DNA of 64,000 nucleotides from Virgibacillus sp. AGTR (GTDB taxonomy: Bacteria; Bacillota; Bacilli; Bacillales; Amphibacillaceae), in contig NZ_JAJERH010000004.1 in NCBI RefSeq assembly GCF_016919725.2, positions 93,890-157,889 on the forward strand, written 5' to 3'. Position 1 is the first letter of the stretch, and each line of letters begins with the position of its first letter. The notes under the pieces are model-generated. The model made no database searches. It saw only the letters and a list, made by a program, of their open reading frames with translations, and was not told the DNA's origin. Shown here piece after piece: positions 2,026 to 35,564 of this stretch. Position numbers and translations under genes: made by a program.

Positions 2026-2097
2026 AGGTGATACTCGGATTCGAACCGAGGATGAAGGTTTTGCAGACCTTTGCTTTTACCTCTTGGCTATATCACC
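2026..2097 (-). tRNA. tRNA-Cys (GCA)
   Basis: Cloverleaf on the minus strand: acceptor GGTGATA/TATCACC, anticodon arm AAGGT-CTGCAAA-ACCTT with anticodon GCA, T arm CTCGGTTCGAATCCGAG, and T at the discriminator position as usual for tRNA-Cys. CCA is not encoded. A single isolated tRNA gene on an accessory region. Confidence 0.93.
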
Positions 2098-4422: not shown

Positions 4423-5175
4423 TCACAGTTCCGGTCCATCGTTTTCTATTTCATGATCGTGCTCATCGAACCCGTAATCGTCACCAGCTGTCATCTTCTG
4501 ATGAGTATCACCGCGACCCCGGGCATAACGATCGTACTGTTTATCATATCTGTTTCCTTTGATGCCTTGAGCTGCCATTTCTTCTTGTCTGATCTGCTGA
4601 TATGAGCGGCGGCGCGTATGAGTCTTTACCTCTGGCGCATGACCTGTATAGGATAGACCCGCAGCCTTCATCTCTCCATCTCGACTGTATTGCTTTAATC
4701 TATCACGCTGCATTGCATCTAGGTCTACTTCCGTAGGTTCCTTAAAGTGTGGATCGACCCCGTCATTCTCCTGTACCATACGATCGTAATCGGCGGAAAT
4801 ATCAACAGGTTCCCCTTCATATCTACTTTCATACGAGTCAAACATAGACGTATAAAAGGAAGGACGGGACGCTGTAAACGCGTCAAAATCACGTATAAGA
4901 TCTTTCTCCCAATCGGGTGAAAGACTTTCACCACCAATTTCTTTCGTCGATTTTTTGTATGCATCGAGCATAATGTCCCGGAGTACGGCGTCGTCCGGGT
5001 TATCCGCAAGGATGATACCATGACTTCGAAACGAACACTGAATTTCTTCTTTGACGATTGCATCGGATTCAGGATCGCCGGAGTTTGTCCGGTAATACAA
5101 GGACTCGTAACTGTTTTTTATACGGCTTTCCGGTGGTAAATTTTTTACCTGGTCTTTTCGCATCATCTTCACCAT
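4423..5175 (-). CDS. Conjugation-block protein, unknown, with DGPEL tail
   Basis: 250 residues, mostly charged and helical, with a basic stretch (HTRRRSYQQIRQEE) and an acidic C-terminus. AAAGGAGTG precedes ATG 5175; the longer reading lacks a ribosome site. No family recognised. The last residues, NDGPEL, match the tail of the protein encoded at 29112-30185 (DDGPEL), though the rest is unlike it. First gene of the unit that also holds the HU-like gene. Confidence 0.6.
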   Translation of the reverse strand: MVKMMRKDQVKNLPPESRIKNSYESLYYRTNSGDPESDAIVKEEIQCSFRSHGIILADNPDDAVLRDIMLDAYKKSTKEIGGESLSPDWEKDLIRDFDAFTASRPSFYTSMFDSYESRYEGEPVDISADYDRMVQENDGVDPHFKEPTEVDLDAMQRDRLKQYSRDGEMKAAGLSYTGHAPEVKTHTRRRSYQQIRQEEMAAQGIKGNRYDKQYDRYARGRGDTHQKMTAGDDYGFDEHDHEIENDGPEL

Positions 5176-5264
5176 AAGACACGTCACTCCTTTAGTATGA
5201 GATATATTAAGGGAGTAAACTATTATTCGTATGCCAAATGGGAAAGGCGAAACACCTTCCATTT

Positions 5265-5442: not shown

Positions 5443-8400
5443 TCAGAGAGCAATTCCTGTATCTTCTTCCACGGGAGTAAGAGGAGACGCCTCCTGCTCT
5501 AACCCTTTTTCAGATGGCTGTACTAGTTGTTCGACGACGCGTTGGGTATCTTTTTTTGCAAGTTTTGTCTGCTCTGTCGCTTCTCGCATCATGAACGGAG
5601 CGAATCGTTTGTTCTGCTCTCCTTCAAGAAGAGATTCTCCGTTCTTCGCTAAACGTTTCAGTTCTTCGTAACCACCACCATACGCAACACGGTCCATCGG
5701 GGAACTTTTAAGAGTCATTGCGTCTTTCAGTGGCACAATCTGACCGTTATGGGTCAGTGTTTCGGTCACAGCGTCGATGTGTTCTTCAGCAACATCAACT
5801 TTCATATCTTCTTCCATAATCTTTGTTAATTGTTTTTTAAACCCGTTCGGTGACAACCCTCTTTTCGGATTATACATATCTTTACCTCTGAAAGTTTTGT
5901 TCATATCATCCGTCAGGAGTTTGTTCACCGTTTTTGCATGTACAGGGTCATGCTTGATTTGTAATGTACCTTGCGTGAGCGGGTACATAGACTCTAACGC
6001 CGCCGTAATATTTTGATTCCGCATGACGGAAACCAACTTCTGACTGAACGCCCCGGCAAGCCCAGTATCATCTGATTTAACACCTGTTGCATACTGAATA
6101 TCTCGTGCATCGTTCGCAGTCTTTTTGCCGTTATGATAATTCTTATATTCATCTAATTTTTTCGGACTACCTTTCGCACCGTTTTCGACCATTTGACCGA
6201 ATGACTCGAATACCGCTTTATCATCCTTGAACGATACGAAGTCACCTCCAAACCCGTGCTCACGGAATAACTTGTGGCTATATTCGTTCAGATCCCGCTG
6301 AGATTGTTTCAGAAGTTTCGGATTTGTGCTTTTTGCATTCTTCTGAGCTTTCTCATACAATTTCTTCGGACTATCGTCCCCAAGCTTCTCGGCTTTCGCC
6401 TCAGCACTAGCTAGGTCCATACCAGTCTGATAATACAGCTCGTCCTTACCGGAACCTTTATCAATCATGTTCGCCCAGTGGGAGAATTTATTGACCAAAT
6501 CACGGTTCGCAGCCTTGGAATCGAACTTCATGATTCCCATGGTATCACCATCGAAATCCATGTCGTGGGACTTATCGGCAATCGGATTAATCGCAATACC
6601 GTGAACCGAATCGTCTTTCTTGACCGTCATCGCACGGATTGCTCCATCCCGCCACACCGGGTCACGGAACGCCATCACGACGTCTCCTTCTTTAGCATCA
6701 AGCGCATCCATCATGTCTTGGTTCATTCCAGCCTGACCGATATCGAGCCTTGGGTCTACGACTGCTACCCCTGTTGCTGAATGATTCATGCGTTTACCCA
6801 TAATTTTGTCACGAAGGAAGCTGTGTTTTCCGTTGTGACCTCCATCAAATTGACGATCAATGATGGTAGACTGAATCTTATCGAAATGATCCTGTGCTTT
6901 TGCCTGGGCCTTCTCTTTCGCTTCGTCTGTATCGGCCGCATGATAATCACCGATAGCTTCATAGATGTTAGCATAATGATTCGTGAAATCAGAACGCCTC
7001 ATGGAACCATCTACCAGCTCCACGTTCTGACGAAGTGACGCAGATAGCACCGGAATACTGTCCGTTTTTTGGCCTGTTTTAAAGGTTATATCAAACGGTA
7101 CATCCAGGAATCCGCCCTGGTCTTTGATTTGGTCTAAGAATGCACCGGAATCCGTTTCTGGATCAAAAGTAAAATGATGGCGATCTTCATCAGCATGAGG
7201 AGTGTATCCCTTCATGATCGTTCCATCTGCCTTCATATCCAAACCGGTTGCGATTAGATACTCACGGTACGTGCTCCACGCGGAATCGTTACGACCATAA
7301 ATTTCATCGAGAATACCATTTGCCTCTTTGGATTGAAGCGCCCATGCCAACTGTCCGCTCGCTTTACGCCCTTTTCCTTCGAGAACATCTTCACGCGTAT
7401 AGGCGTGTGTTTTGTCATCGACTTTCATGTCTGTCACAATAATGTTGAGCTGCCCCATTGCTGCTTCAAAGGTTTCGCCAGTATCTGGATCAACCAAATT
7501 AGCAATCTCCCCGTCCATAAGTTCTTTCACGACCCCTGCGTTATGGCGTGACAACATGGAATAAGGGGCACTCACCACATCAAGCTCAGGATTTGCTTTC
7601 ATAAAACGGACTTCTTTATCAAGCCCCTGTTTTTTCGCTTCGTCTAAGTCCATGTGACGGTCAATTACGATTCCAATAGTTCCTTTGTTCCCACCGAAGT
7701 CGGACAATTTGTCGCCACGTTGTAACGGGCGGAAACAACCGTGTTCTTCTTTAAAGTTGTTTAACTGATATCGCAAACGCTCACGATCCTCACGACTATC
7801 ACTCGTATAAAAATCCGAATAAATACTATATCCTTCTTCTAACACTTCTTGTGACCATAGCATTCCTGCATCTTTTGCAAATTGTTGCCCTTGTTCCAGT
7901 GACATCAATCCTGCATCCTGCTGGCTAAATATACGATCCAACATTTCCATCGATTCCTCATTCGGCTTATGACCGAAAACCTTGTTACGTTCTGCAAATT
8001 CCTTCGAAATAGCATAGCTGTCATCAAATGTCCAACCACCGAACGACATAAGCGCTGTATTGACGTTTTCATCTACTTTCAAAGCCGTCATGAGCTGATT
8101 CGCAGCCATCTGGTTACGATCCCACGCATTAAACGACTTCTTATCGAAGTATGGGAGTTTTTGAAGCGCCGTCTTATCCGGTGTATACGTGCCGTCCTTT
8201 TGCAAAATGCCTTTTGAAGGGGTTACACTTCCATCTTCATTGACCTCAGCACCATCCGTCAGATACCAGATAAGTCCTTGCGTCTTACCAGTTCCAGTCA
8301 TTGTTGTGTCGGCGTAATTCTCGATGTCCTTATTCAACACCCGCATGTTCGTCTCACCCGCTACTTTCCAATAACTGAATGCAGACGTATCATCCTCGTT

Positions 8401-10737
8401 GCCGTATTCACGGTTCGCCGCTGTCTCAGCACGTGTTGTCGCGTAATCCGAGAACTGGTTATCAAAGCGCACACGATTGGATAACGTTTGTAAAATGGCA
8501 CTTTTCGTATCATGATTTAATTGGTTCGTTTCCATAAAGTCTAGTTCGATACGCTTCCCGTATACATCACCGTGATACAAACCGTTAATACCACTTGCAT
8601 CAAGCACCGTCGGTACTGTCCCAATAGAATTATCAAACGGGCGAGTCATCTGGTGCGTCACTTTCGCACGCAGCTGCTCGTTCAGGTGCTGTTCGAATCC
8701 TTTCACGCGGAAACGGTCCATACGGTTGTCATAATCACCTTCAAAAGAGAAATAACCGGTATATCCAGGAACAATACCGTAATTGTTTCCACCTTGGAAC
8801 TTCGTCGCGATAATCCCGTTTTCATCTGGCACCATTACCTGACCGATTTCCCCATTTACTTTTTGCCACATCTGATCTTTTTTCTTAGATCCTGTTCGTC
8901 GTTTCGCTTCCCAACGAATAACTCCATTTTCGTCAATACTTACATCTGGGTCAGAACCAAATCCATCTTCACCAACGAAACCACCAGATTTAAGCGTGTC
9001 TTGCACGGTCGTAAGCGCCTGCTTCAGCATCGGGTGATCAATTTCATCGATAGATTTAGCTGACTCCGGATCGAACTTAATCAAGCGTTCTTTCATGGCG
9101 TTCACCGCAAAATCATTTCCTTTGATTTTGTCTAAATCATAATTAACGGTTTTTAGAGCGGTCATCATGGCATCTCGTTCGTTTCCACGACCAGTCTGTT
9201 GCATGTGGTCGATAACGAATGCCGGATTAAACCCTTTTTCGTAATCTCCTACAATGGAATCTTTCACCAATGTTAGATACTCCAACCCACCGTCCTGACT
9301 ATGGACGGCCATTTGGGCAGCTCTTTCCTGTGCTTCTCGAATCACTTCATCGTTGGAGTATAACTGTTCTAATTCAGCTTGGAATTCCGGACCGGTAATC
9401 AGCACGTCTTCGTTGTCAAGCCCCGCATCAAGTAAGGCTTGTAGTTCTTCGGTCTTAAATTCGTCATTCACGACCGCTATCGCATCCTCAATCGCCGTAT
9501 CGATATATTCCTTTGCCTCGGCTTCCCCATAGAAGACCAAGGAACGGTAACGACCTTTAATCGGTTGTACCTGTAACGACTTTTGACGGGCTACGCCATC
9601 CAATTGAACACGGCTCGAATCACGGCTGACAGATTTAACCACTTTCCCTGTCTTGTGTCCTGTGACGTAATCGAGCAACGCTATAGAATCACTGGCTTCA
9701 AATTTTGTATTTTCCTTTACGGATTTCGAACCCATTACGTTGAAGTAGTATGCATTGTATGCATCATACACACGTCCGATATAACTACCATTAGCTTCTG
9801 GATCGAAGACGCGAACGTTAATATTCTCCCCTGCGTTCATACGTACTTCAATCTGATTCGGATTGCCGTTCTCACGAACATTAAAGTCGTATCCGTTCGA
9901 ACGCATATGCTTGAGCAACTCCATACTGTTCTCTGCAAGCTCCGAATCAAATAACTGGTTTGTATCGATGTTTTTCGCTACAAGCTCCGCATCAGCTTTT
10001 GTTAGGTAAGCCCCTATTATATGAGAAAGCCCTCTATACTCGCGACCCTCAAATTGCCCACCATGCCAGCCGAGAAGCGGTTCGCCCGGAACATAATCCG
10101 GCTCTTCTGGCTCCGGCTTATTCTGTGAGGTCTGTGCGCTTCCTTGGATTTTATTGACCGCACCTGGACTAGATATACCTGCTTTGTTGAACCCTTCCCG
10201 TTCCTTTTCTCCAGCTACTGTTACCTGATAGGTAAAATCTGCATTGTTGCGGTCGTAAAAGGTCGCAGCATCTCCCGGGCTCAATTCCCGCGCCGATTTA
10301 CCTCTATGGATAAAGAACGCTTTTCGCATCGGCTCTTTCGCCGCATTCAAGATATTGCTCCGGATGACCGGGTCAGTAACGGTATGCAGATAATTCCCAT
10401 CCTGCGCATGTTTATCGTAATCTTCACGGCATTTCGCCCACATACTCTTGACTCCTTCATCCAGCGTTGGATAGTCATCCAACGATCCGAAGGAAGTCGC
10501 TCCAGTCGAGCGCAATAGTCGAACGAAATCGCTCGGTCTTGCTTTCATGTGCGTAAAATCCATCGACTTCCCATCACGCTCCCACTTATCGCGGAATTCC
10601 TGCATGAGGGCAGGTGTTACGGTAATACCCTGCTTTTTCAAATCAGGCATAGTTTGGGCGAGCATGACCATCGTGGCATACTCAGCAATGTCCCGATATC
10701 GGGTGTCAGTTGTTTGCTTATCAAAAGTTCCTAACAT
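5443..10737 (-). CDS. Fused beta/beta-prime two-barrel RNA polymerase-like protein
   Basis: 1764 residues. In order it shows beta-subunit landmarks: DRNQMAANQ (R874; compare RALMGxNMQRQ), GGWTFDDSYAISKEF (D905-D906; compare GYNFEDSIxIS), GDKLSDFGGNKGTIG with both conserved lysines (K1010, K1018), and APYSMLSRHNAG. Then beta-prime landmarks: MGKRMNHSATGVAVVDPRL (~1313-1331; compare GKRVDxSGRxVIVxxP), the metal-binding MDFDGD (D1394, D1396, D1398; compare NADFDGD), a bridge-helix-like GAKGSPKK (1520) and a trigger-loop-like TGLAGAF (~1560). So both double-psi barrels sit in one chain, as in YonO-like and RNA-dependent polymerases, but with clear beta and beta-prime signatures. The first ~850 residues are not recognised. 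Expected activity: DNA-directed RNA synthesis. Ribosome site AAAGGGG before ATG 10737. Its promoter and operator resemble those of the transfer genes, so it probably belongs to the conjugation programme. Confidence 0.85.
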   Translation of the reverse strand: MLGTFDKQTTDTRYRDIAEYATMVMLAQTMPDLKKQGITVTPALMQEFRDKWERDGKSMDFTHMKARPSDFVRLLRSTGATSFGSLDDYPTLDEGVKSMWAKCREDYDKHAQDGNYLHTVTDPVIRSNILNAAKEPMRKAFFIHRGKSARELSPGDAATFYDRNNADFTYQVTVAGEKEREGFNKAGISSPGAVNKIQGSAQTSQNKPEPEEPDYVPGEPLLGWHGGQFEGREYRGLSHIIGAYLTKADAELVAKNIDTNQLFDSELAENSMELLKHMRSNGYDFNVRENGNPNQIEVRMNAGENINVRVFDPEANGSYIGRVYDAYNAYYFNVMGSKSVKENTKFEASDSIALLDYVTGHKTGKVVKSVSRDSSRVQLDGVARQKSLQVQPIKGRYRSLVFYGEAEAKEYIDTAIEDAIAVVNDEFKTEELQALLDAGLDNEDVLITGPEFQAELEQLYSNDEVIREAQERAAQMAVHSQDGGLEYLTLVKDSIVGDYEKGFNPAFVIDHMQQTGRGNERDAMMTALKTVNYDLDKIKGNDFAVNAMKERLIKFDPESAKSIDEIDHPMLKQALTTVQDTLKSGGFVGEDGFGSDPDVSIDENGVIRWEAKRRTGSKKKDQMWQKVNGEIGQVMVPDENGIIATKFQGGNNYGIVPGYTGYFSFEGDYDNRMDRFRVKGFEQHLNEQLRAKVTHQMTRPFDNSIGTVPTVLDASGINGLYHGDVYGKRIELDFMETNQLNHDTKSAILQTLSNRVRFDNQFSDYATTRAETAANREYGNEDDTSAFSYWKVAGETNMRVLNKDIENYADTTMTGTGKTQGLIWYLTDGAEVNEDGSVTPSKGILQKDGTYTPDKTALQKLPYFDKKSFNAWDRNQMAANQLMTALKVDENVNTALMSFGGWTFDDSYAISKEFAERNKVFGHKPNEESMEMLDRIFSQQDAGLMSLEQGQQFAKDAGMLWSQEVLEEGYSIYSDFYTSDSREDRERLRYQLNNFKEEHGCFRPLQRGDKLSDFGGNKGTIGIVIDRHMDLDEAKKQGLDKEVRFMKANPELDVVSAPYSMLSRHNAGVVKELMDGEIANLVDPDTGETFEAAMGQLNIIVTDMKVDDKTHAYTREDVLEGKGRKASGQLAWALQSKEANGILDEIYGRNDSAWSTYREYLIATGLDMKADGTIMKGYTPHADEDRHHFTFDPETDSGAFLDQIKDQGGFLDVPFDITFKTGQKTDSIPVLSASLRQNVELVDGSMRRSDFTNHYANIYEAIGDYHAADTDEAKEKAQAKAQDHFDKIQSTIIDRQFDGGHNGKHSFLRDKIMGKRMNHSATGVAVVDPRLDIGQAGMNQDMMDALDAKEGDVVMAFRDPVWRDGAIRAMTVKKDDSVHGIAINPIADKSHDMDFDGDTMGIMKFDSKAANRDLVNKFSHWANMIDKGSGKDELYYQTGMDLASAEAKAEKLGDDSPKKLYEKAQKNAKSTNPKLLKQSQRDLNEYSHKLFREHGFGGDFVSFKDDKAVFESFGQMVENGAKGSPKKLDEYKNYHNGKKTANDARDIQYATGVKSDDTGLAGAFSQKLVSVMRNQNITAALESMYPLTQGTLQIKHDPVHAKTVNKLLTDDMNKTFRGKDMYNPKRGLSPNGFKKQLTKIMEEDMKVDVAEEHIDAVTETLTHNGQIVPLKDAMTLKSSPMDRVAYGGGYEELKRLAKNGESLLEGEQNKRFAPFMMREATEQTKLAKKDTQRVVEQLVQPSEKGLEQEASPLTPVEEDTGIAL

Positions 10738-10757: not shown

Positions 10758-10804
10758 CTGCTCTGCACACAGTAATTTTGGAAAAATTTGTATACCTAAT
10801 TATA
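10758..10804 (-). promoter_or_regulatory. Promoter/operator of the RNA polymerase gene
   Basis: Minus strand TATGATATAAT (extended -10; TATAAT at 10804-10799), then an operator-like ACTGTGTGCAG copy at about 10761-10774, then the ribosome site. The same TATGATATAAT string precedes virD4. Confidence 0.55.
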
Positions 10805-10811
10805 TCATAGG

Positions 10812-10834
10812 AAAAAGAGGCCGAAGCCTCTTTG
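10812..10834 (-). terminator. Terminator of virD4
   Basis: AAAGAGGC-TTCG-GCCTCTTT on the minus strand with a stable tetraloop and following T run. Confidence 0.8.
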
Positions 10835-10913
10835 GGGGTGGGGTTTGTTAAACATTCATACAGTTTCTTGAAACAATGGAACAAGAAAATACTTGCATAT
10901 TCGATTTTTTATG

Positions 10914-12118
10914 TTAACTCTGCATTTTCAACTGATACGCCCGTTTCGCACACTGCTCAAAACGTCCTCCGGCTAAATCCTGCCAAGATTCAAGGTCCGC
11001 GAGGTACTTGATGAATTCATCCGTTACTTCATAGAAGACCTCGTCCACATCGCCTTCCCCGTACACGCGCCTCTCGGTGTCTGTCTCAGCATTCTCCAGC
11101 GATTCGATATCCTCCCGATCGGCACCCTTACTTGTACGAACGTACATCGCACCGGTATCGCTCATCAGCTCTCCGTCATCATTTACACGGAATCCCGGAG
11201 CGTCTTCGAAGTATTTCTGTGACTCGGCATACGCTTCGGCAAGTACCTTATCGAGCTGACGATTCACTTGACCACCTATAGAAACCAAGTCTTCCCGGCT
11301 GATTTGACCGCCGGCGTAACGTTTTTGTTGATGCATTTCCTGCTGGTTTTGCGCTTTCGCCGCTTCCTGCACCAACTCGGTGTTTTCGATGGCAGCATCC
11401 AAGATATTACCGAATTCGTCCATATCCGGAACATCTTCCATGGCCTCAACATGTACCTCCCCAGCTTGACGGTGCTTGATGTTATACAACTGCGAATTGA
11501 TTGCATGCATGATGTCATCGGCAACAACGTTCTGATCAAGGCGGATAAGATCCGTCTCTGTGAGTCCATATGCTTCCAAATACGCTTTTTTCATGACATC
11601 GGCTGCTCTCGCTTGTTCCAGACGTTGTTCCAACATGTGGAAGAAGTCCGGCTGATTCTTTCTAACGTCAAAATCCTTGGCGCTTGAATTTGTCGGTATC
11701 GTCTGCAGACTGAATTTCTTACCAGGAAGACTGATTTGATTCTGAAATAATCGCCAACTCATCGGATATGCCGTTTCATTACGGTTCCAGATCGGGCTTA
11801 CTCCTGCTTTAATTACAATGGAATTACGAGCTTCAATGAACATGAAATCATTGAATTGTATAACCGGACGTTCTTTTGTCGCCATCGTGTAGCTGATTTT
11901 CCCTTCGTTCTTGGCAAGAAGCCGTTCATTGTCACGCGTGACGGTCTTCTGATCCACACGCGCTTCATGCGTCGTTCCGCTCATCTTCACAAGCGTATCA
12001 ATCATCGAGTCGTCCGTGGATTTTAAGAAAACGATGTTCTCCGTGTTCCCCTGGATAATTTTATCTACTGAGTCCCCATACACATCACGTAATTGCTGGA
12101 GAGTTTGCAGGATTAAAG
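10914..12118 (-). CDS. virD4: VirD4/TraG coupling protein, exon 4
   Basis: Last exon of the coupling protein gene. It starts at CTTTAATCC directly after the intron's 3' end and reads LILQTLQQLRDVYGDSVDKI, the conserved arginine/glutamine sensor stretch of TraG/VirD4 ATPases, then GNTENIVFLKSTDDSMIDTL and a long hydrophilic C-terminal part that may bind substrates. Exon lengths 966 + 295 + 1236 + 1205 nt sum to 3702, i.e. 1234 codons exactly, so splicing of all three introns restores one 1233-residue protein. VirD4 is the inner-membrane ATPase that links the relaxosome to the type IV channel. Confidence 0.85.
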
Positions 12119-14094
12119 ATAGCGATAGGTAAGGGTTTGATGTAATCGTCGCCTTTTCCCCCGCTCCACACCGTGCATGCGATTTTCACCGCACACGGCG
12201 TTCCACCGAGCCGTAAGAAGCACTCGGCTTGTGACCATCACTCCTGCGACCATTACAACCGCGATCATCGCTGCGATCACTACTTTTCAATATCGATACG
12301 ACTGCTTATTATTCTTCGTCAGTCTACGAAATACAGGTACTAAATAATAGAATGAAATTGTTTATCTAATTCTGACGCAATCGCCTTATACGTTTGGTGC
12401 GAGTAATGTATTTCAATTAACGGTAGATTTATCGCTTCGGCATGTTCTCGCTTTAATTGATCGTGCTGTCGTTGTATTTTAAGTTTTTCCTCACCACCGA
12501 AGTATTCCACCGGTTTAAAGTGTTGTTCCCCCTGATATTCAATCAAACATAGCGGCGAACCATCTTTATACACCATAAAATCATAAGATAAAGAGCGACC
12601 ACCAACACCAACCAGACCATCAAATATTTTTTGTTTGGTGTACGTAAGGTCACTAGCATCCAGATAACGCGCGACATACGTTTCCGATTTTGACTCAAAC
12701 GGAAAGGCGCAACCGCAGGATTGACTGATCCCCGATTTTAGCATGTTTCCCGCCACGATATTTTCAGTACCGCAAGCGCAGTGGCATTTCCACATCGTCG
12801 CCCTGCCACCACCGGGATAAAAGCGATCGGGAACACGCTCCAGCACTGTCCATGAACCATACTTGTTACCTGTTAAATCTTCATATACAACTTTTTCTTT
12901 ATGCTGCTCCTTCCGGTAACAACCACACGATATGCTTTTTCCTCGAACCAGTGACTGTTCCGTCACCTCCCGGACTTCACCACACTCGCATTCACAGACC
13001 CATCGCTTCAAACGACGACCGCTCGGCACCACTTGCTCCGAACCTACTCCAAGCACTAACCATCGACCAAACGTTTGACCTTCAAGATTACGCACTTTGC
13101 TTAGTACGTCCGTTTTCAGACAACCGCATGATTTGGATTCACCTGATTTCAACGTCCCCGCGCGTATATCTCTTTCCGTACCACACTCACAACGGCAATG
13201 CCACATCGTGGCTTTTCGTCCCGATGGTTCTGTGATACTTTCCGCATGGTATAATACCGTCCAGCGATTAAACGTCTGTCCTGTTAAATCCTCAAACGTG
13301 AAGTTTGCCTTCACACGTTCTTTCCTAAAACATCCACAGGATGCCGTTCTACCGTTTTTAAGACTTGTCGCTCTCACAATACACTTTGCTCCACATTCAC
13401 ATTCACACGAATACTGCACGTGAGCTGTACCGCTTTTTGTAACATAATCACTGGTTCGATACAAAACCGACAACCTGTTAAATGTGCGCCCTGATAAATC
13501 TTCGTATTTGCGTGTTCGTTTGTTTGGTTTAAATACAGGTATTGTCATATCGTTAAACCTCCCAACCCTTGTAGTAAAATCTAAACGCTACACGCTCAGT
13601 CATTTTCACTCTATTATTTAGTTGTCAAAGAACAAATGTGTATTTCGCTCAATATCTTTCCCAGTTCCACCATATCTATCTGTACATAGCTGCCCTTAGA
13701 CCTTTGCTCTGATCCCATTTGCAATAGAAGCGCCTGTAACGCAACGAGGGGTTTCATAAGTCCAATTTTTACTCACCCTCTGCAAATTTAGTTGCATTTC
13801 TACAACGGTCAGCTAAGGAATCGTACATTCGCAAATTCGTCAGTCGCTATTGCGACATTCTAATCATAGGCAGTTTATAGACACCCGGCATATAGGCAAC
13901 ACACCAATAAGGCGCTTTCGTGGGAAAACCCCGACGGTTGCTCTCTGCCGCCTTTAACGGGCTTCGTACATGATTATCATGCACGCCGTAGCTCAGTGTG
14001 AGTGTTTCAAGGTGTTACCCCATCATTCCACTCATCGACATGGCAGTTCACACATCATGTGTGGCTAAACTTTTCATTTAACAACTGGTCGCAC
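12119..14094 (-). mobile_element. Group II intron carrying a homing endonuclease gene
   Basis: 5' end GTGCGACC at 14094; 3' end ...CCTATCGCTAT at 12119. A domain V hairpin (CGCCGTGTGCGG / TCGCATGCACGGTG) lies near 12180. 5' domain blocks such as GGGTAAC, CCTTGAAAC and TTGCGAATGTACG recur in the intron at 15331-18101, and both introns end in the same 11 bases, so they are close relatives. This one has no reverse transcriptase; domain IV holds an endonuclease gene instead. It splits virD4 just after the Walker B region, between GQDQQF and TLILQ. Confidence 0.8.
12340..13548 (-). CDS. Intron-encoded endonuclease with zinc-finger repeats (EDxHD/Vsr-like)
   Basis: 402 residues. Four tandem ~65-residue repeats, each with the pattern DLxGxxFxRxxVL ... 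CxCECG ... SCGC, are zinc-binding DNA-recognition units often found in phage and intron endonucleases. The C-terminal ~120 residues look like a Vsr/EDxHD nuclease: ESKSETYVARYL, LIEYQGEQHF, and KIQRQHDQLKREHA with the HD pair. It would cut an intronless virD4 allele and drive homing. GGGAGG precedes ATG 13548. Family placement (EDxHD versus other PD-(D/E)xK nucleases) is my inference. Confidence 0.7.
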   Translation of the reverse strand: MTIPVFKPNKRTRKYEDLSGRTFNRLSVLYRTSDYVTKSGTAHVQYSCECECGAKCIVRATSLKNGRTASCGCFRKERVKANFTFEDLTGQTFNRWTVLYHAESITEPSGRKATMWHCRCECGTERDIRAGTLKSGESKSCGCLKTDVLSKVRNLEGQTFGRWLVLGVGSEQVVPSGRRLKRWVCECECGEVREVTEQSLVRGKSISCGCYRKEQHKEKVVYEDLTGNKYGSWTVLERVPDRFYPGGGRATMWKCHCACGTENIVAGNMLKSGISQSCGCAFPFESKSETYVARYLDASDLTYTKQKIFDGLVGVGGRSLSYDFMVYKDGSPLCLIEYQGEQHFKPVEYFGGEEKLKIQRQHDQLKREHAEAINLPLIEIHYSHQTYKAIASELDKQFHSII

Positions 14095-15330
14095 TAAACT
14101 GCTGATCCTGACCAAGCCCGATACTAAGCATTGTTTGCAATGCCGGAATACCATTCCCCTCGGACTGCAAGTTACCGACCTCATCAAGCATATAACGTGT
14201 CTTATAGAGAGGTTTCTGGTTTTCTTTTGTGAGATACGAACTCTCGAAGTTTACATCCACCATCTGTTTTATCAAAATTAGGATGAGCTTTGCATAACTC
14301 ATCAGGTGTGGTGGAGTGATGAAAAAAATCGCCTTCGGTCGCTCCGTATACTTCACGGTTTTCTGGCTAAACGCCGGAATTTCGACAATCTGTTGTTTTC
14401 TATCTTCATCAAGTAAGTCATAATAGCGACGCTTCACAGCGGTGTCGCGGTATTCAAATTTGTTCTTTTTCTTGTTAAAACGAAGCTCACGAAGTACTCC
14501 ATCCCGCATGATTTTTTTATTCAACACCGGGTCTTTCACATATCGGCGACCAGATAAGTCCGTCTTAAACGTAAGCTCCAATTCAAAATAAAACGTTTTG
14601 ACGAGTAAATCTGTCTTCGGATTCTTGATTTGCAGTTTAATATAACTCTTACGCTTTTTGAATTTCCCGTCGAAGAAATAACGAGCCCAGCCCTCACGGT
14701 CAATCATCTGCGTGTGACCAAACAGCTTCTCATCAAGCGGTTTTTCGAACGTTGGATCTTCATAAGCGCTCCAGACGGACTGAAGTCCAACTAATTTATA
14801 CTTTTCAAGATACTCGGATGCAAAGCGAACACCGACACGTCTCGGGAACGACAAGCCTTTTGCATCGAAATTCTGCGACGGTTTACCGGACGTCAACGTA
14901 GAAATCGTTGGGTCGGTAAAGAAACTCATGGCGGTCAGAGCAATCCCATACACCGACGCAATCGTCTTATCCGACCCTGCCATCGCACGAAGTGCATTAT
15001 CTGTATTCTGGACGAGTTTACGCATTTCGTTCTGTGGTAGTTTCGCCGTCGCGTCAAAAAATAGCGTTAAATAGTCTTTCTCTTTAACGTTTTCATTCTC
15101 ATCAATTTTGATAACCGACGGGTCCGTGGACTTTTTCGACGATAACACAACGAATAACTGATAAGCGTTATATAGCGTGACTTTCCCCCACATATCATCG
15201 AGTTCTTGCATCAAAACTTTCTCCGGCTTCCCTTCGAACTCCGCCTGTTTACGCACACGTTTTTCTTCTTCCAGGTAAAAGTCGATTAAACCAAAAGCAG
15301 AACGTTTAAAGGCATTATTCGCCGCATTCG
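14095..15330 (-). CDS. virD4: VirD4/TraG coupling protein, exon 3
   Basis: Middle exon, 412 codons. It starts in frame as (P)NAANNAFKRSAFGLIDFYLEE after the group II intron and ends at MLSIGLGQDQQF. It contains the Walker B strand and glutamate (TRYMLDEVGNLQ) near its end. The text between is the all-alpha and linker part of the TraG nucleotide-binding domain. The apparent ATG of the unspliced reading lies inside the upstream intron and is not a real start. Confidence 0.85.
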
Positions 15331-18101: not shown

Positions 18102-18396
18102 GCCACATGGGATCATCGGCACCTTCTTTCGGGAAGAAAATATCCCCGATATTTTCGATATATGAAGCGGCTTTCGTGAAATCCCCTTCACGTGCTGACT
18201 CCGCCGCGAACCCTAACGGGTTATAAATGTCCGTATTTAATGGGTTAATCAAGTTGAACTGGACGATTTCATACCCCCGAATTGTCGCAGGGATAAAGAA
18301 CTTAACGAGCAGTTCCCCTTTCGGATCATTTACTACCATGTTGTTTTTGCGCTTTTCGCGCGTCCACATATCAAGCGTTGGTTCAATAACTGTTTG
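18102..18396 (-). CDS. virD4: VirD4/TraG coupling protein, exon 2
   Basis: Short exon of 295 nt reading QTVIEPTLDMWTREKRKNNM, then VVNDPKGEL and FNLINPLNTDIYNPL, ending at DDPMW. It directly continues the Walker A loop split by the upstream intron (AGKG | QT). NDPKGEL is the conserved strand after the P-loop helix in TraG proteins. Boundaries: starts at CAAACAG (18396, uncertain by 2 nt), ends with C before the GTGCGAG of the group II intron. Confidence 0.85.
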
Positions 18397-20023
18397 ACAT
18401 TATCTTCGGGTTCATTCGCAAGGTGAACCCCGTGACACCTAAGAGGTATCACAGCTTGTATTTTTCATACAACGTTGAGATTATTTCGTAATCTTGTTTT
18501 GTTTTAATAAGTGTTTTCCGGTAACCAATTTTGCGGAGACGGGCACCCCGCATCAAACCACGCATATACATCACTCAAATTAGGTACTTGCTTTTTATTG
18601 ACTTGCTTACATGAACCATCCCAGAAGACTAAATAGTTCAATTTATTAACTTTTGCCGTCAAACGCTTTTTAACATCACGTTCCGTCCATGTTTGAATAA
18701 ATTGGCGATACCTCGACGGTTTGCCAGATTCTAATTCCAATCGGTTCATGTTCTCAATCCAAGACCTTACTATCTGTTGGTCACGTGAATTAGATGCGTC
18801 ATACCAATGTGTATTGTGGCAACGATCACCATTCAGTTCAATAAATAAATCTAATGATTTAATATAATAATCAACTCTGAAAGGATACCGATCATCAACA
18901 ACGACATTATATAAAACATCATCATCACCGAAATAGGCACGTAATAGAACTCCTAATTCTTGTTCAGGTTTAGACGTATGCAATGTTCTATTTTTACGTC
19001 TATTATTGAATATTTTATCCCTAATCGCTTTAACCTGTACGCTATTGCCAGCACCATATTTCTCTTTCATAGCCGACTGTCGAGCATATGCTGATTTCAT
19101 AGCAATACCCGGCGCCTTCATCGGATTATCAACGCCGTAATGGTCTAACATTGTGGTTTCAAGACTTTCAATCATTTTTGCAGCAATGTTAGGGTGCTCG
19201 TTCGGGTGTTCTACTCCATAACGCTCAACTAATGCTTCTGTGCGTTCCCGTCGGCCATCAGCCGCAGCTTTTGCTGTAACAAATTGGTCGTATGTCTCTT
19301 TTTCAAAAACATTAGAGACACCATAATTCGCTTTAACTGTCGCCACCTGTTTCTTTTTCCAACATTCATTACGCAACTGTTTATAAGTATCAGCACCTAA
19401 TATATCTGAAAAAACACGTTTATAATTACCGAAAGCGCAACCTAACATCACAATGTGTCTTCCGCGTGTAGCCTTATATGGATCAGCATACTCGCGTGAC
19501 ATATCACGATACGCTTTTTTAATGTCATCATCTGTATAGCGGTCACGGATGTACGCAATCTGATGATGAATAATATCCTCTTTTGTATATCGAATTCCTT
19601 TTGCTAATTGTTGTTTTAACAATGATTGCATCGAAATGCCCGTTCGACGCTTAATATATTGACTGTTAAAACCGCGCAAATAAAACGCTGCAGCCTTCTC
19701 TAATTTGCTCATCACTCTCATCCTTTACAAACAAAACAAGATTTATTATTTTTCTTCCGCCCTTAGCTTGCGGATTTACTCTCCCACAAGGAGATAATCG
19801 TTGAACCTTCCGCCTAGTTTCGTAAACCGTAGCGGATTGGCTGCTAAACACCCATTGTTAGTAAACACTTAGGATTTAACCGTATGTTTATCCTTTTTCT
19901 TTTTTCTACTTTCGTTACCACTCAGCTTGACTTTTCAGCCTACTGTTTCGGCAAAAAGGCTTTAGGGCTTCAAAGCATTTAACATATAGGATTTGCTTAT
20001 CACTAAACAAACCGGGCCAATTT
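18397..20023 (-). mobile_element. Group I intron in the Walker A codons of virD4
   Basis: Exon end AAGGGT can pair with intron GGCCC, forming P1 with a U-G pair at the splice site; compare the td intron of phage T4. Core elements: R-like GGTTCAACGATTATC near 19800 and S-like GAAGATAATGTC directly at the 3' end, able to form P7. The endonuclease gene lies between them, i.e. in the P8 loop. 19713-20023 is the 5' core. The splice junction is ambiguous by 2 nt (shared GT). No GTGYG start, so not group II. Confidence 0.7.
18504..19712 (-). CDS. Group I intron homing endonuclease
   Basis: 402 residues. Repeats of the form YGVEHPNEHPNIAAKMIES / YGVDNPMKAPGIAMKSA / YGAGNSVQVKAIRDK are typical DNA-binding modules of phage homing nucleases. 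The C-terminal part has a PD-(D/E)xK-like core: FRVDYYIKSLDLFIELNGD followed by CHNTHWYDASNSRDQQ. AAAGGATG lies 8 nt before ATG 19712. Predicted to cut intronless virD4 near the P-loop codons. Exact family is inferred. Confidence 0.7.
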   Translation of the reverse strand: MSKLEKAAAFYLRGFNSQYIKRRTGISMQSLLKQQLAKGIRYTKEDIIHHQIAYIRDRYTDDDIKKAYRDMSREYADPYKATRGRHIVMLGCAFGNYKRVFSDILGADTYKQLRNECWKKKQVATVKANYGVSNVFEKETYDQFVTAKAAADGRRERTEALVERYGVEHPNEHPNIAAKMIESLETTMLDHYGVDNPMKAPGIAMKSAYARQSAMKEKYGAGNSVQVKAIRDKIFNNRRKNRTLHTSKPEQELGVLLRAYFGDDDVLYNVVVDDRYPFRVDYYIKSLDLFIELNGDRCHNTHWYDASNSRDQQIVRSWIENMNRLELESGKPSRYRQFIQTWTERDVKKRLTAKVNKLNYLVFWDGSCKQVNKKQVPNLSDVYAWFDAGCPSPQNWLPENTY

Positions 20024-20989
20024 ACCCTTACCAGCTCTTGTAATAGCCAACACCATAGTATTAACGGGAGCGGTATCAACAATATACGCTCCGGCCGGTC
20101 GCTGTACTTCGTATTCTGGAAATTCCCAGTCTTTATTAATTAAATCGGCAACGGTGTCATACGGCAGTTTGTCACGGTCTTTGCGGTTGCCTGTATCATC
20201 GACCGGATTATATTCGATTTTCTTCACATCCAAAGGCTTGCGGATGTCTTTTTCTGTGACCGGGATTCCGCTTGCCGTAAACAAATCCTGACCGAATTTC
20301 TCATCAATCAGGGGCTTCTTGGTCCGGACGATCTTCCCGTTTTCGTCCTGGACGACTTCGCCTTTATGGATAACAACCTCACCATTTTCTTTCATGTCTT
20401 TTTTGTGACGTTCGGTCACATCCACCCGTTTCAAACCCTTTCTGTCGAGCATCATATGAGAAAGTAAGCTCGACACCTGTACACTGGAATGCGCCCCGAC
20501 ATCCGGGAACCAGTCATACGTGCGCTGCACTTCTTCCGGAAGCATAATATGTTGATCATTTTCGTATGTATTAATATCGGTGGAATCAATCATACTATTT
20601 TTGGAACGCCAACTCGCCATCAGCCTCTCATTAGCAATCAACCACGTCATCAGAAACACAAATGCTGTCCAGGCATACACTTGCCAATTCGACGTGATTT
20701 GGATTTGACTCATATCAAAATCCAAAAACGATACGCCGTCCCCGTTCGATAAGAACTGGAAAAACCCCCACATAATCATACCGATACATCCAACGAAAAA
20801 ACCCAAAACGGCAAATATACCTGCAATGAAGAGAGACAAAACCCTCTCTTTGACAGGTTTGTCCACCACCCCGCGCTCTCCGCGTTCCATTGTCTGTGTG
20901 GCATGCACTTCTCGGTTTTTCACCCGCTCTTTATAATCCTGATCCTTGAGTATCTCCCAGTTTTTTGATTTTTTACTTCGTAGACCCAC
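20024..20989 (-). CDS. virD4: VirD4/TraG coupling protein, exon 1
   Basis: 322 codons. Two transmembrane helices (about residues 50-78 and 108-125) are followed by the start of the ATPase domain, ending in the P-loop TMVLAITRAGKG, whose last residues Q-T are supplied by exon 2. Start GTG 20989 is chosen because AAGGGTGG lies 4 nt before it; the in-frame ATG upstream has no ribosome site. Downstream of the stop in the unspliced frame the reading runs into intron. Preceded by promoter and operator at 21044-21083. Confidence 0.82.
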
Positions 20990-21043
20990 TGAACCACCCT
21001 TTCTGTATTCCTTCATGTTTAAATAAATGGAAATAATCGTAAA

Positions 21044-21184: not shown

Positions 21185-23500
21185 CTAGACGGCGATATGA
21201 ACGTTAAATGGCTCCATCACTTCTGCCGGTATTTCATTGTTGAATGGCACCGTTTGTTCAGTCGGTTGCGCTTCGTTGGACGCTGGTGCAATCTCTATAG
21301 AATTGGCACCGAACAGGAATCCGAAGATAATTCCAATTGCAAGTGTCACCGCACCAACCGCACCGAGAACAAATTTCATCGGTCTATGCGCTTGGTTGGC
21401 GCGCTCATTCGCATACGCCAATTCTTTTTCTTTGGCTTCGAGGGCATCTTCATACATCTTCATACGATGTTTAACCTCCTCTTCTTTTTGCTCACCAATT
21501 TTACTGTTGCTTGCATTCGCATTCTGAAGTAGTTCGCGAAGGTTTTCGTTTTCTCGATGTTCCCGTTCGATACGACGTTCATAATCCTCTATGACACGAT
21601 CGATTTGTTCTTTGAGTTTAGATTCTACCTGGCGTAAGTTTTCCCTTGCCTGTTTATTATCCTCTTCTATCTGACGAGTTTTCGTCAGAAGCATCTGCTC
21701 ATACTCGGCGCGTACACGTTCTGCTTCATGAGACTGTTTTAATTTCTCTGCTTCCGCTTTTGCTCTTAATACTTCATCCGCAAAGTGTTTACGTAGGTAA
21801 GAATCCATGTTTTTACGGAACGCATCATACATCTGCAACTCTTTTTGAGAGATTGCTTGATATTCTTCTTGTAATTGTTGCAAAAGTCCTGTCATTGCTT
21901 TGTCGAATAGGCGTTTTGCCACGGTGCGTCGATCTTTATATAACTCGCCAAGTTCCGTATCTCGATTCGTTTTCAAATCGGACTGAACATGGTCTCTAAC
22001 GTTATCAATTTTTTGATTGCGTTCATCACGATAACGACTGTCATACACCGCATAGGCTTCACGTTTCGCATTCTCTGCATATTCTTCCCGGGCGTCATTG
22101 TATTCCTTATTAATCCGAGCGATTTCTCCTGCAACCTGCCGCTCCAAATCATCCATCGCTTCTTCGAATTCTGATTCAATCTCATCATGGCGACGACCGT
22201 AAGGGGTCTGCTTATCTTTGTGATCCAACGACTCAACCAATTTATTATGAATATCTCGCATGCTTGTTGTAAATTTGTTACGAAGCGACTGTATATTATC
22301 TTGATGAAAACGTTGCAGTTCAACATTTGCATCTTCACGTAATTTCGAAAGAACGTTTTGCAATTCGCTACCATCTGTACGAGATGTATCGAATCGAGCG
22401 ATAGATACGGAATCAAAATAATCATCGAACTTGGACATATCAATGTTAAGATCCAATTCCGTATTGTTAAATCCATGAAAGACCAATCGATTAATCGATT
22501 CCTTAGATTCCTCAGCTGTCATGCCGTCATCCTCTGTGAAATCAGTGGCAACCGCCACATCCTCCATGTCTTCCATATCAGAATCGTAACCCTCATACAT
22601 GTCGCTTTCATCAAATGTATCGTCATAACCGTTATCCAAATTCGCATCAAGCATGTCATCCAGTTCCGCATCCATATCCGTATTATCGAAATCGGTATCC
22701 GGTTCTTCATCGAATAAGTCTTCGGAATCCTCCAGCTCATTCAGGTCATTGGTACCTAACTCATCCGCTCTGTCAACAAGGGAATTATCTTCATCAAAAT
22801 CCATACCATTGTCTTCCTCGAAATTATCGCCTTCGTCCAGACCATCTGTCACTGGTGCGTATGTCTCCGCGTTTGTTTCTCCGTATCCCTCATCCACTTC
22901 AGCTTCCACAATCTCACCGTTTTTAATATCGAGCTGTATGTTCGGATCGTTAGCCATTTCTACCAACCGCTCAATGTGTACGGTCGATTCCAAAACTGTC
23001 AATCGATCGTCGTCACTCAGATCAAATGGAACGAGCGCCCAACAAAACGCTAGATCATGAACAAAATCAAATTCATCCAGGGAAATCAGCGTTTCCTGTG
23101 ATGGAATAATACCAATCACACCAGTGGCTAAATCGTCTGCAAGCGTAATCGATTCAATCGTCTCTGAACGCAACGCCTGGGCGAAAGAACCAAATTCCTC
23201 GCCGGTATGGTCCAGACCTGCTTCTTCGAGCATCTCGTTTGTGACCGCGACAATCAAAAGACCGTCATCCAACTCCCTAACCGCCGAATTACCTATCTCC
23301 GCTAATTCCTGAACGACATCCAAGGACGCTGCAGCAACGGATTCTTCGAGCTGCATACGCTCTAATAATGTCAATTCTTTCTTCTTACCAGAAAATAGGG
23401 ATTTCTTCTCTTTTGACTTCTTATCCTTTTTTGTGGGTTTAACGTCCGACGGTTTGTTTTTTTTGGACTTATTACTGCCATGTTTGGTGAACAATCCCAT
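21185..23500 (-). CDS. Large coiled-coil, single-span membrane protein
   Basis: 771 residues. Lysine-rich N-terminus (1-45), globular part (~45-190), a very acidic low-complexity stretch (~200-330), a long coiled coil (~390-690) rich in E/K/R/Q, one transmembrane helix near 705-730 (PMKFVLGAVGAVTLAIGI), and a short outside tail. Not assigned to a family. Placed between virD4 and an AAA+ ATPase gene, so a structural or scaffolding part in transfer is plausible. The acidic region is typical of proteins from salt-tolerant hosts. ATG 23500 follows GGAGGG. Confidence 0.65.
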   Translation of the reverse strand: MGLFTKHGSNKSKKNKPSDVKPTKKDKKSKEKKSLFSGKKKELTLLERMQLEESVAAASLDVVQELAEIGNSAVRELDDGLLIVAVTNEMLEEAGLDHTGEEFGSFAQALRSETIESITLADDLATGVIGIIPSQETLISLDEFDFVHDLAFCWALVPFDLSDDDRLTVLESTVHIERLVEMANDPNIQLDIKNGEIVEAEVDEGYGETNAETYAPVTDGLDEGDNFEEDNGMDFDEDNSLVDRADELGTNDLNELEDSEDLFDEEPDTDFDNTDMDAELDDMLDANLDNGYDDTFDESDMYEGYDSDMEDMEDVAVATDFTEDDGMTAEESKESINRLVFHGFNNTELDLNIDMSKFDDYFDSVSIARFDTSRTDGSELQNVLSKLREDANVELQRFHQDNIQSLRNKFTTSMRDIHNKLVESLDHKDKQTPYGRRHDEIESEFEEAMDDLERQVAGEIARINKEYNDAREEYAENAKREAYAVYDSRYRDERNQKIDNVRDHVQSDLKTNRDTELGELYKDRRTVAKRLFDKAMTGLLQQLQEEYQAISQKELQMYDAFRKNMDSYLRKHFADEVLRAKAEAEKLKQSHEAERVRAEYEQMLLTKTRQIEEDNKQARENLRQVESKLKEQIDRVIEDYERRIEREHRENENLRELLQNANASNSKIGEQKEEEVKHRMKMYEDALEAKEKELAYANERANQAHRPMKFVLGAVGAVTLAIGIIFGFLFGANSIEIAPASNEAQPTEQTVPFNNEIPAEVMEPFNVHIAV

Positions 23501-23768: not shown

Positions 23769-25682
23769 TTACTTTCGGCGTGCTCGTTTCGCATCCACCG
23801 TTCCCACTTCGATGTGAGCATCGGATTCTCGGATGTTTTTATTTTGGCATGCCATCTCACCTTTAACATGAATCCCAATATGCTTCGCATCTGGATGTTT
23901 ATTGATATACCGAGACAATGGGGAAATAACCTCAGTATCCATACGGGCAACAAGACCACGCGCACCCCCGGTATTGGTATCAATGTCATTGTCCTCATAG
24001 ACGAGATATACGACAACCTCTGGCTGAATCAAAACTTGCACACCATGAATCCGGTACACATCCTTCTGTAATTGCTTTAACTTGTTCAGGATGATTCTCT
24101 CATAAGTTTTATATCCGAGTGGCTGAAACGGGATAATGGCGTTCATCCGGTTGATAAGTTCCGGAACGAACGCGTCATTTGAAATTAACGAGCGCCGGAT
24201 GACTTTTTGATACTTAGCCAATCCGTCCGCTCCATCATCATCCTGGGAATAATGCGCGATGCTTTCATAAACTTCCGAGCCTGCATTCGTCGTCAAAACA
24301 ATGTAGGTATTCAAAAAGCTTACCTCACGCCCCTGGGCGTTAGAAAGACGGCCGTCATCCAACATTTGGAGCATAAGACGAGTGATAACCCGATGTGCCT
24401 TCTCAACCTCGTCGAACAACAGGACACAGTGAGATTTGTTCCACACCTTCATCGTCAGTTCCTCACGGAAGCGATCTAGAGAGCTCTCCAGTGCGAATTC
24501 GGACATATCGAAACGAATCATCGCACGTTCATCTCCGAATAAGAGCTCAGCTAATCCTTTCACGGTTTCCGTTTTACCTGTCCCAGTTGGTCCGGAGAAC
24601 AAAAAGCTCGAAATCGGACGGGATTTATCGTGTAAATCCGCCACGGCAATTTGCAGGCGTTGTTCCAGTGTTTTCATGGCGAACGTCTGGGAATACACCC
24701 GCTCGTTCATCTTTTGCTCGATGTACCGACCATCGATTTCAAACGTGACTTGCACACCTGTACTGTCATGAATGACTTCGGCAAGTAAATGACGGTTCAT
24801 CTTGTAATCGGCGGGATACGTGCGATACCAACCGATCATCGAATCAAGCAGCAATATACTTTTGCGTGGCTGGGAATCAGCCGGTACGTAACGGTTGCTA
24901 TAATCATAAATTAACTCGAACAACTGGGAATCATAGATGTCATCATAAGCACCGTGGGCTTTCGCGATGGATTTTAGAATCGACACCACCGTTGCTTTAT
25001 CCGGCTCTCTAATGTTAATACGCTGCAAACGCTGCATGAGCGCTTGGTCCTTCTCGACATATTCATGGAACTCAGCAAACGTGGTCGCCGCGATAATCTT
25101 GATTCCACGGCGTCCACTCTCTGCTAGGATCGGTTTAATCGATTGCGACGCCGCTTGGGATAACTGAACAAGCAGATGGAATTCATCGATGAACAAAACT
25201 AGCTCTGGTGCCGATTCCTGTTTCTTGCGGCACTTAGTCTCCGACTCTAATTCCAAGAGTAACTGCGCATCTTGAGCATCTTTCATGTCCTGTTTGAAAC
25301 GGAGCACATCCTCGAACAACCCTTTCACGCGGGACGCCATCTGTACAGCTCCGTCCTCTCCGTTCTCACTCGCCGCCATCTTCGCAAGATCCACCTCAAC
25401 ATACACACGACCTTTATCCTTTTCGGACGTGCCCTGTACGAGCATCGTTTTACCTGAACCCGCATCCCCTAAAAGAAATGCATTTGATAATTCCGCGCGG
25501 TTCAATGAAGCGAGCAGGCGCCGCATCTCCCGTTCTCTGCCAATAACTGGACGACTCGGAGGGGGCATGAATACAGCGTACTCCGCTAAAAACGGATATT
25601 TTTCTTTATCGAATACCCAAGTATCTATTTGCTTCTTTCTAAGTGATTCCGGTCGCTCTATCGTTGTAATACTCATCACCAT
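23769..25682 (-). CDS. ClpB/ClpC-like double AAA+ ATPase
   Basis: 637 residues with two AAA+ modules. D1: RPVIGREREMRRLL, Walker A GDAGSGKT, Walker B LVLFIDEFHLL, and an arginine-rich sensor (QRLQRINIREPD). D2: Walker A GPTGTGKT, Walker B VLLFDEVEKAH, LTTNAGSE, and a C-terminal small domain. The Clp N-domain and ClpB middle domain are missing. Hsp100 relatives unfold or remodel proteins with ATP. Located in the transfer block just after an acidic protein gene; a role in remodelling the relaxosome or channel is inference. AAGGAG precedes ATG 25682; a second ATG two codons on is also possible. Confidence 0.82.
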   Translation of the reverse strand: MVMSITTIERPESLRKKQIDTWVFDKEKYPFLAEYAVFMPPPSRPVIGREREMRRLLASLNRAELSNAFLLGDAGSGKTMLVQGTSEKDKGRVYVEVDLAKMAASENGEDGAVQMASRVKGLFEDVLRFKQDMKDAQDAQLLLELESETKCRKKQESAPELVLFIDEFHLLVQLSQAASQSIKPILAESGRRGIKIIAATTFAEFHEYVEKDQALMQRLQRINIREPDKATVVSILKSIAKAHGAYDDIYDSQLFELIYDYSNRYVPADSQPRKSILLLDSMIGWYRTYPADYKMNRHLLAEVIHDSTGVQVTFEIDGRYIEQKMNERVYSQTFAMKTLEQRLQIAVADLHDKSRPISSFLFSGPTGTGKTETVKGLAELLFGDERAMIRFDMSEFALESSLDRFREELTMKVWNKSHCVLLFDEVEKAHRVITRLMLQMLDDGRLSNAQGREVSFLNTYIVLTTNAGSEVYESIAHYSQDDDGADGLAKYQKVIRRSLISNDAFVPELINRMNAIIPFQPLGYKTYERIILNKLKQLQKDVYRIHGVQVLIQPEVVVYLVYEDNDIDTNTGGARGLVARMDTEVISPLSRYINKHPDAKHIGIHVKGEMACQNKNIRESDAHIEVGTVDAKRARRK

Positions 25683-29048: not shown

Positions 29049-29069
29049 AGACCTCACTCCTTTTATAAA

Positions 29070-35457: not shown

Positions 35458-35564
35458 TTGCATACCCTCCTTCGCTATGTGGTTGTGTAGATTAAATGTA
35501 TAAATCTGTGAAAGATGAAAGGGTCCCGTCACAGTATATGTAAGGGACACCTTACATCACTAGA

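Follow-up and report, generated by a model that had tools for sequence, protein, structure and literature searches.

An RNA polymerase homologue with β- and β′-like parts in one chain, encoded in a MobL conjugation block, and its possible transfer into recipient cells

The analysed window comprises 64,000 nucleotides of Virgibacillus sp. AGTR (positions 93,890 to 157,889 of contig NZ_JAJERH010000004.1) and contains a block of conjugation genes (Table 1). The 157,889-bp contig also codes for ParA, a D5-like primase-helicase, a RecJ-like nuclease and a UvrD helicase and is, therefore, plasmid-like; comparison of its ends revealed no exact overlap. A tRNACys gene is located at window positions 2026–2097 (minus strand), and a 224-aa ORF at 284–958 (plus strand) contains a CCRSHDYCY motif and appears phospholipase A2-like by eye.

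The initial annotation had assigned the region to conjugation, which is borne out by the coupling protein, the MobL relaxase, the tail-lysozyme/CHAP protein and a protein that resembles the N-terminal portion of VirB4 below the cut-off. MobL and coupling protein are encoded in one block in the window as well as on Rhodococcus pGS01, Gordonia pGKT2, Staphylococcus pAYP1020 and a Streptomyces plasmid. Relatives harbour genes of similar size at the position of that for the 771-aa protein, and homologues of the protein encoded directly after the polymerase gene mostly comprise ~249 aa, versus the 279 aa listed in the window. The coupling-protein gene (10926–20989, minus strand) is interrupted at three places in the window; two of the inserts contain group II intron parts, and an ORF with DUF7487 is present in the remaining one. 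Furthermore, a LAGLIDADG domain resides inside the coupling protein of Lumbricidophila (L012:4051–9303), and mobile introns or inteins appear to insert preferentially into this gene.

Table 1 Features of the conjugation block (window coordinates)
Feature	Position	Strand	Basis or remarks
Protein directly after the RNA polymerase gene	4423..5262	minus	279 aa as listed; tail IENDGPEL
Single-chain RNA polymerase homologue	5443..10737	minus	ORF exact, 1764 aa; Pfam, profile and fold searches
Terminator-like hairpin, then extended -10 (TATGATATAAT)	10795..10835 (approximate)	minus	between coupling-protein gene and polymerase start, by eye
Coupling protein (VirD4/TraG type), residues 832–1230 of the intact Shouchella protein	10926..12122	minus	tblastn
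Coupling protein, Shouchella residues 422–833	14093..15328	minus	tblastn; Pfam T4SS-DNA_transf E 2.6e-6 on ORF 14078–15346
Coupling protein, Shouchella residues 323–420	18103..18396	minus	tblastn
Coupling protein, Shouchella residues 1–323	20021..20989	minus	tblastn
771-aa protein between AAA+ ATPase and coupling protein	21185..23500	minus	one predicted membrane segment
AAA+ ATPase	23769..25682	minus	two ATPase domains
MobL relaxase	26817..29057	minus	Pfam MobL E 5.9e-38; C-terminus QIEEELE
Protein directly before mobL	29112..30185	minus	357 aa; tail TEDDGPEL
Wall hydrolase	33214..35550	minus	tail-lysozyme and CHAP, Pfam
Protein with similarity to the VirB4 N-terminal part	56303..57211	minus	weak sub-cut-off match
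DNA topoisomerase	57632..60133	minus	

The RNA polymerase homologue (RNAP) is encoded by a single ORF; the 1764 residues and the catalytic landmarks quoted in the initial annotation were confirmed in the translation, and the strand, which it had not named, is the minus strand. The protein consists of ~850 N-terminal residues, a β-like part (~870–1170), a β′-like part (~1226–1719), a linker and the acidic C-terminal tail VEEDTGIAL. Pfam detected the β barrel domain RNA_pol_Rpb2_6 at residues 1003–1092 (E 1.1e-5, above the curated cut-off), followed by the β′ barrel domain RNA_pol_Rpb1_2 at 1348–1411 (E 2.7e-5, just below the curated cut-off). Among 17 diverse family members, Rpb2_6 was found in 12 and Rpb1_2 in 11. 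The family spans Bacilli, Clostridia and Actinobacteria. With residues 850–1720 as query, 246 homologous proteins were retrieved at E≤0.001, the 120 listed of which formed the homologue set used here; most of these comprise 1700–2100 aa, and at least two already bear the UniRef name 'DNA-directed RNA polymerase'. Chromosomal rpoB and rpoC genes are also present, apart from the RNAP gene of the conjugation block.

RNAP is related to the catalytic cores of β and β′, and the likeness is far beyond chance. In an alignment of the window RNAP fragment with 96 of the 120 listed homologues, R874, D906, K1010, K1018, R1064, K1304, D1394, D1396, D1398, K1522 and Q1589 are identical in all 97 rows. Profile alignments to rpoB and rpoC of related Bacillaceae matched RNAP residues 850–1170 with rpoB (probability 83.6, E 8e-6) and residues 1169–1440 with rpoC (96.7, E 4e-10), covering ~290 and ~270 residues, respectively; the profile of the whole family reached rpoC with a probability of 95.7 (E 8.6e-9). 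In the alignment to rpoB, FGGWTFDDSYAISKE pairs with DGYNFEDAIIMSE, GDKLSDFGGNKG with GDKMAGRHGNKG, SRHNAG with SRMNIG, LAWALQSKEANGIL with EVWALEAYGAAYTL, and GDK..GNKG with GDKM..GNKG, while the DFDGD of RNAP pairs with that of rpoC. From the two alignments it follows that the β-like part, corresponding to the C-terminal half of β, extends towards the natural C-terminus of β, with β′-like sequence beginning soon after. No significant profile alignment was obtained for residues 560–900 with rpoB, nor for residues 1440–1745 with rpoC (probability 0.6). These domain and profile searches, proposed in the initial annotation, support its view of a single chain with β and β′ parts. Its assignment of TGLAG to the trigger loop needs revision: this motif more probably belongs to the bridge-helix region. 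On visual inspection, TQGTLQIKH (~1588–1596) resembles the trigger loop, but it lies in the stretch 1440–1745 that gave no significant alignment to rpoC. By homology, RNAP presumably makes RNA.

Compared with the PDB, a 40-row family profile matched 120 distinct sequences at E≤0.01 (best 1.8e-14), and the 60 shown of these 120 are β′, γ or Rpb1-type chains. The predicted model of residues 545–1740 (pLDDT 90.0, pTM 0.86) likewise yielded a strong fold match to β′/Rpb1 chains; its VIA table spans model positions 625–1174 only. The structural check proposed in the initial annotation, for two facing double-psi barrels, was thereby run in part: besides the fold match to β′, Foldseek placed at rank 4 chain 8txo_I, which we take to be a β chain. 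Of the ~850 N-terminal residues that the initial annotation had singled out, residues 1–646 were well predicted (pLDDT 91.6), and a fold search of the model gave no confident match.

A search of 72,556 plasmid records detected RNAP genes in 13, namely five each from Staphylococcus and Lactococcus and a single one each from Streptomyces, Rhodococcus and Gordonia; the Lactococcus matches cover just 24 % of the query. When the same records were searched with the intact coupling protein of Shouchella, 12 of these 13 plasmids ranked first (435–1099 bits) among the best 40 of 867 matches, and the next record scored ≤180 bits, i.e. under half. Within this scope, all 12 plasmids with this type of coupling protein carry RNAP; the 13th, Lactococcus NZ_CP122373, is absent from the best 40. 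The window MobL as query placed eight RNAP plasmids first (168–295 bits, next ≤77) among the best 40 of 117 matches, which include none from Lactococcus.

The coupling-protein gene lies upstream of RNAP, usually as the adjacent gene, in 13 of 16 loci scanned (a scan that left out L009, L010, L015, L016 and L023). No coupling-protein match was obtained with the upstream ORFs of L011 (a fragment of 218 aa at the edge of its contig), L017 (602 aa) and L005 (the final fragment of a split gene). Two genes are located between coupling protein and RNAP on pAYP1020 and, by annotation, on an S. aureus plasmid, and one small opposite-strand gene is annotated at this place on pGKT2. In L023, sugar genes precede RNAP and the coupling protein is encoded elsewhere on the plasmid; in L013, the downstream gene codes for a helicase. 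Across 13 loci, the identity matrix of the coupling protein correlates with that of RNAP at a Mantel r of 0.855, a value reached by none of 5000 permutations. The two genes share one common history. In two Oscillospiraceae contigs (L018, L019), the coupling-protein gene is followed by one for a protein of 2773–2803 aa, in which DFDGD is present and the GDK..GNK pattern absent; these proteins are perhaps a very divergent branch of the family.

RNAP is rare among the genomes sampled. At E≤1e-15, it was found in 1 of 398 genomes of the class and 1 of 398 of the phylum, i.e. its own genome only. In 20 of 101 genomes of relatives a match was obtained at E≤0.001, all but that in the own genome being weak; nine loci with such weak matches were read and rejected, since all proved to be rpoC. 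A scan of viral contigs with one RNAP protein gave no match, as did the PHROGs families, and the single weak match in a phage collection of 50,697 records was the polymerase of P23-45 (E 9e-3).

The C-terminus of RNAP consists of a variable linker followed by an acidic-Gly-hydrophobic tail. All of the first 50 listed homologues have D/E at position -6 and terminate with L, V, M or P, and 45 of them have G at position -4. This tail, resembling E-D-D-G-P-E-L, is common to RNAP and the proteins encoded directly before mobL and directly after RNAP; no search linked either of the two to RNAP, and tblastn of plasmids gave no match for them. A strict form of the tail ([DE][DEN]GP[DES][LIFMV]) terminates 43 of 60 homologues of the pre-mobL protein, 23 of 25 of the post-RNAP protein and 6 of 120 RNAPs, and a loose form ([DE]x(0-2)Gxx[LMVIFP]) 46 of 60, 25 of 25 and 73 of 120, respectively; shuffling of the last 30 residues produced the loose form in 0.7–1.6 % and never the strict one. 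When the listed RNAPs are divided by rank, the loose form occurs in 45/50, 23/34 and 5/36, the distant RNAPs being mostly without it. Of the 182 ORFs of the contig, six have the loose tail, among them the three genes named above. At the DNA level, a pattern for [DE][DE]GP[DE][LF] plus stop (or TGG) has one site in the 4.7-Mb genome, at window position 29112, and none in the reversed control. Two further acidic-ended ORFs of the window (61401–61823, minus strand, EDGELS; 63481–63903, plus strand, EAELEV) do not match the tail motif.

In a set of 500 ORFs drawn from the contig plus 25 loci, GP[DESQ][LMIF] is found within the last eight residues of eight (0.18 expected), five from Bacilli and three from Gordonia pGKT2, all of them inside or at most ~8 kb from conjugation blocks. 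As this GP motif was derived from Bacilli, the independent test consists of the pGKT2 matches alone. With annotated starts, the motif ends 5 of 29 CDS inspected in the transfer region of pGKT2, namely the pre-mobL protein (NDNGPQLGG) and four others (SPGPSL, DSGPQLG, AGPEMSA and TGPELGA); the RNAP of pGKT2, ending with SESEGLGA, is without the motif. A blastp comparison of the pre-mobL proteins of Bacilli with that of Gordonia gave no significant hit, the best one (E 1.6) being the tail stretch itself. A clamp-like QLxLF-type motif resides within the last 20 residues of 5 of 120 RNAPs versus 0.05–0.12 expected (QLTLF, QLSLF, QISMF and QLSMF, in P0030, P0034, P0046, P0049 and P0068). The coupling proteins of L002, L003, L004, L006, L008, L022 and L046 comprise 1231–1412 aa, with the last Pfam match ending ~270–330 residues before the C-terminus; this C-terminal extension might be the receiver of the tail. 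We consider the tail a likely secretion signal that would be read by the coupling protein, even though the simple C-terminal signals of VirB/VirD4 and Dot/Icm systems are described in PMC3297438 as positively charged or hydrophobic, in contrast to the acidic tail found here.

Extended -10 boxes resembling those of the host sigma-A accompany the RNAP gene as well as several transfer genes. Given the hairpin and the box preceding RNAP, its gene is probably transcribed by the host polymerase in donor cells. Promoters that RNAP itself would use were sought by k-mer counts in 118 intergenic stretches of contig C150 and none was found; the counts of AT-rich words lay in the range of five Markov controls or hardly exceeded it, and no repeated intergenic motif was prominent besides a 25-nt palindrome, AAAACRYTG-N6-CAGYGTTTT. 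It is located at window positions 21042, 23624, 33176, 36940, 57296 and 61884, with nine sites in total on C150, two on C193 and one on C40, single-strand matches on C138 and C161, and three matches in the reversed control. The palindrome is plasmid-linked. Its copies in the window lie variously downstream of the sigma-A-like -10 boxes, in the spacer or upstream, and a function as hairpin promoter of RNAP was rejected because of this varying place. In five Paenibacillus copies, the -10 box starts exactly +31 from the palindrome centre. Probably, the palindrome represents the operator of a transfer regulator. In addition, a GC-type mini-hairpin (CCCGGCRAGCCGGG) followed by CGATA occurs in three copies on one strand (window 42711, 52077 and 61984, plus strand) without a consistent context; a genome-wide search allowing up to 3 mismatches detected no further copy, and one copy compared with Rfam gave no result above the gathering score.

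The shared tail favours transcription or priming on entering DNA. Conjugation systems are reported to send relaxases, the primase SogL and ParM (PMC8406263), the polymerase of phage P23-45 is fused to the tape measure and proposed to perform pre-early transcription while DNA passes the pore (PMC10770324), and pGKT2, which carries a member of the RNAP family, has reportedly been moved out of Gordonia into Rhodococcus and Nocardia (reviewed in PMC5640721). Based on these precedents, the tail and the link to the coupling protein, RNAP may reach the recipient by way of the type IV channel and there transcribe the entering DNA; this reading has a probability of about one half. The donor's own polymerase would make RNAP from a host-type promoter, and the coupling protein would recruit it through the tail along with other tail-bearing proteins. 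RNAP would then enter with or beside the relaxase-bound strand and, with the incoming strand as template, could start RNA before the promoters become double-stranded for the host, yielding early transcripts and possibly also primers for second-strand synthesis. This reading is opposed by the MobL of the window, which upon inspection lacks the tail, and the absence of the GP motif from the CDS of pGS01 (0 of 15 inspected), the Streptomyces plasmid (0 of 15 inspected) and pAYP1020 (0 of 13 printed). The scarcity of the loose tail among distant RNAPs, its acidic character, the failure of the intergenic k-mer counts to reveal an RNAP promoter and the D5-like primase-helicase of the contig also weigh against it. 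More tentatively, and with somewhat less confidence, a class of conjugative plasmids in Bacilli, Clostridia and Actinobacteria may bring its own RNAP as a counterpart of virion RNAPs, with a C-terminal D-x-G-P-x-L-type tail recruiting RNAP and marking a set of injected proteins, and the incoming strand being transcribed before the host can do so.

Alternatively, RNAP could be a SogL-like conjugative primase that provides RNA primers for the complementary strand on single-stranded plasmid DNA rather than messages. The clamp-like motif, which hints at replication, and SogL as a known substrate of conjugation (PMC8406263) would fit with this function. However, the motif is absent in 115 of the 120 tails, the long likeness to β and β′ appears to be more than priming needs, and with a D5-like primase-helicase already encoded on the contig, there is no obvious call for further priming. 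This alternative is regarded as unlikely.

It also appears improbable that RNAP remains in the producing cell and reads plasmid genes there from promoters not yet recognised, even if YonO, which specifically transcribes the late genes of SPbeta (PMC5467207), offers a model and the exit of RNAP from the cell is something we only infer. The host-type promoters beside RNAP and several transfer genes make donor-side transcription of the latter less likely, the repeated palindrome near these boxes is operator-like, and no other repeated intergenic motif is prominent. The suggestion of the initial annotation that RNAP reads the transfer genes independently of the host is weakened accordingly. Moreover, the tracking of the coupling protein by the RNAP gene and the shared tail would be left unexplained. 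The tail of SSB is acidic with a hydrophobic last residue. An SSB-like docking role of the similarly built RNAP tail for a replication or partition partner, with RNAP and its tail-mates forming a complex inside the cell, would agree with the clamp-like motif beside the tail in some RNAPs, but is very doubtful given that all eight GP-motif ORFs among the 500 lie in or at most ~8 kb from conjugation blocks and that the protein directly before mobL has the tail in both Bacilli and Gordonia.

If RNAP is injected, plasmid gene expression in the first minutes would be independent of the recipient, which would bear on plasmid establishment in distant hosts. The tail is a candidate secretion signal for MobL systems. 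Next to this, RNAP is a large single chain that keeps far more of β and β′ than described for YonO, which makes it useful for tracing how multisubunit polymerases arose. A literature search, with most subscription journals outside its scope, found no RNA polymerase as part of a conjugation system.

Among known systems, natural rpoB-rpoC gene fusions, e.g. in Helicobacter, also combine β and β′ on one chain. Such a fusion represents the essential polymerase of its host, whereas here chromosomal rpoB and rpoC exist besides RNAP. YonO of SPbeta is, like RNAP, a single chain distantly related to β and β′ with the aspartate triad; as described in PMC5467207, it has ~100 kDa, a likeness confined to few active-site residues and no detectable trigger loop, in contrast to the 1764 aa and the long likeness to β and β′ of RNAP, which does not fall under a YonO-like type. 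SogL is likewise a nucleic-acid enzyme encoded with transfer genes and proposed to act in the recipient; it is, however, a primase with reported transfer (PMC8406263), whereas the RNA polymerase homologue described here has a transfer suggested by its tail. The virion RNAPs P23-45 gp96 and phi14:2 gp66 (crAss-like) also possess both barrel regions in one chain and are proposed to enter with the DNA and to transcribe early genes (PMC10770324), an entry that we infer for RNAP; the top PDB match of the single RNAP sequence is 8h2n, a solved 'tape tail measure protein' (E 0.0023). Virion RNAPs are encoded by phages, whereas RNAP is encoded in a conjugation block together with MobL and the coupling protein, and the P23-45 enzyme is, according to the same source, fused to a tail protein, whereas RNAP is unfused and clearly relatable to cellular rpoB and rpoC.
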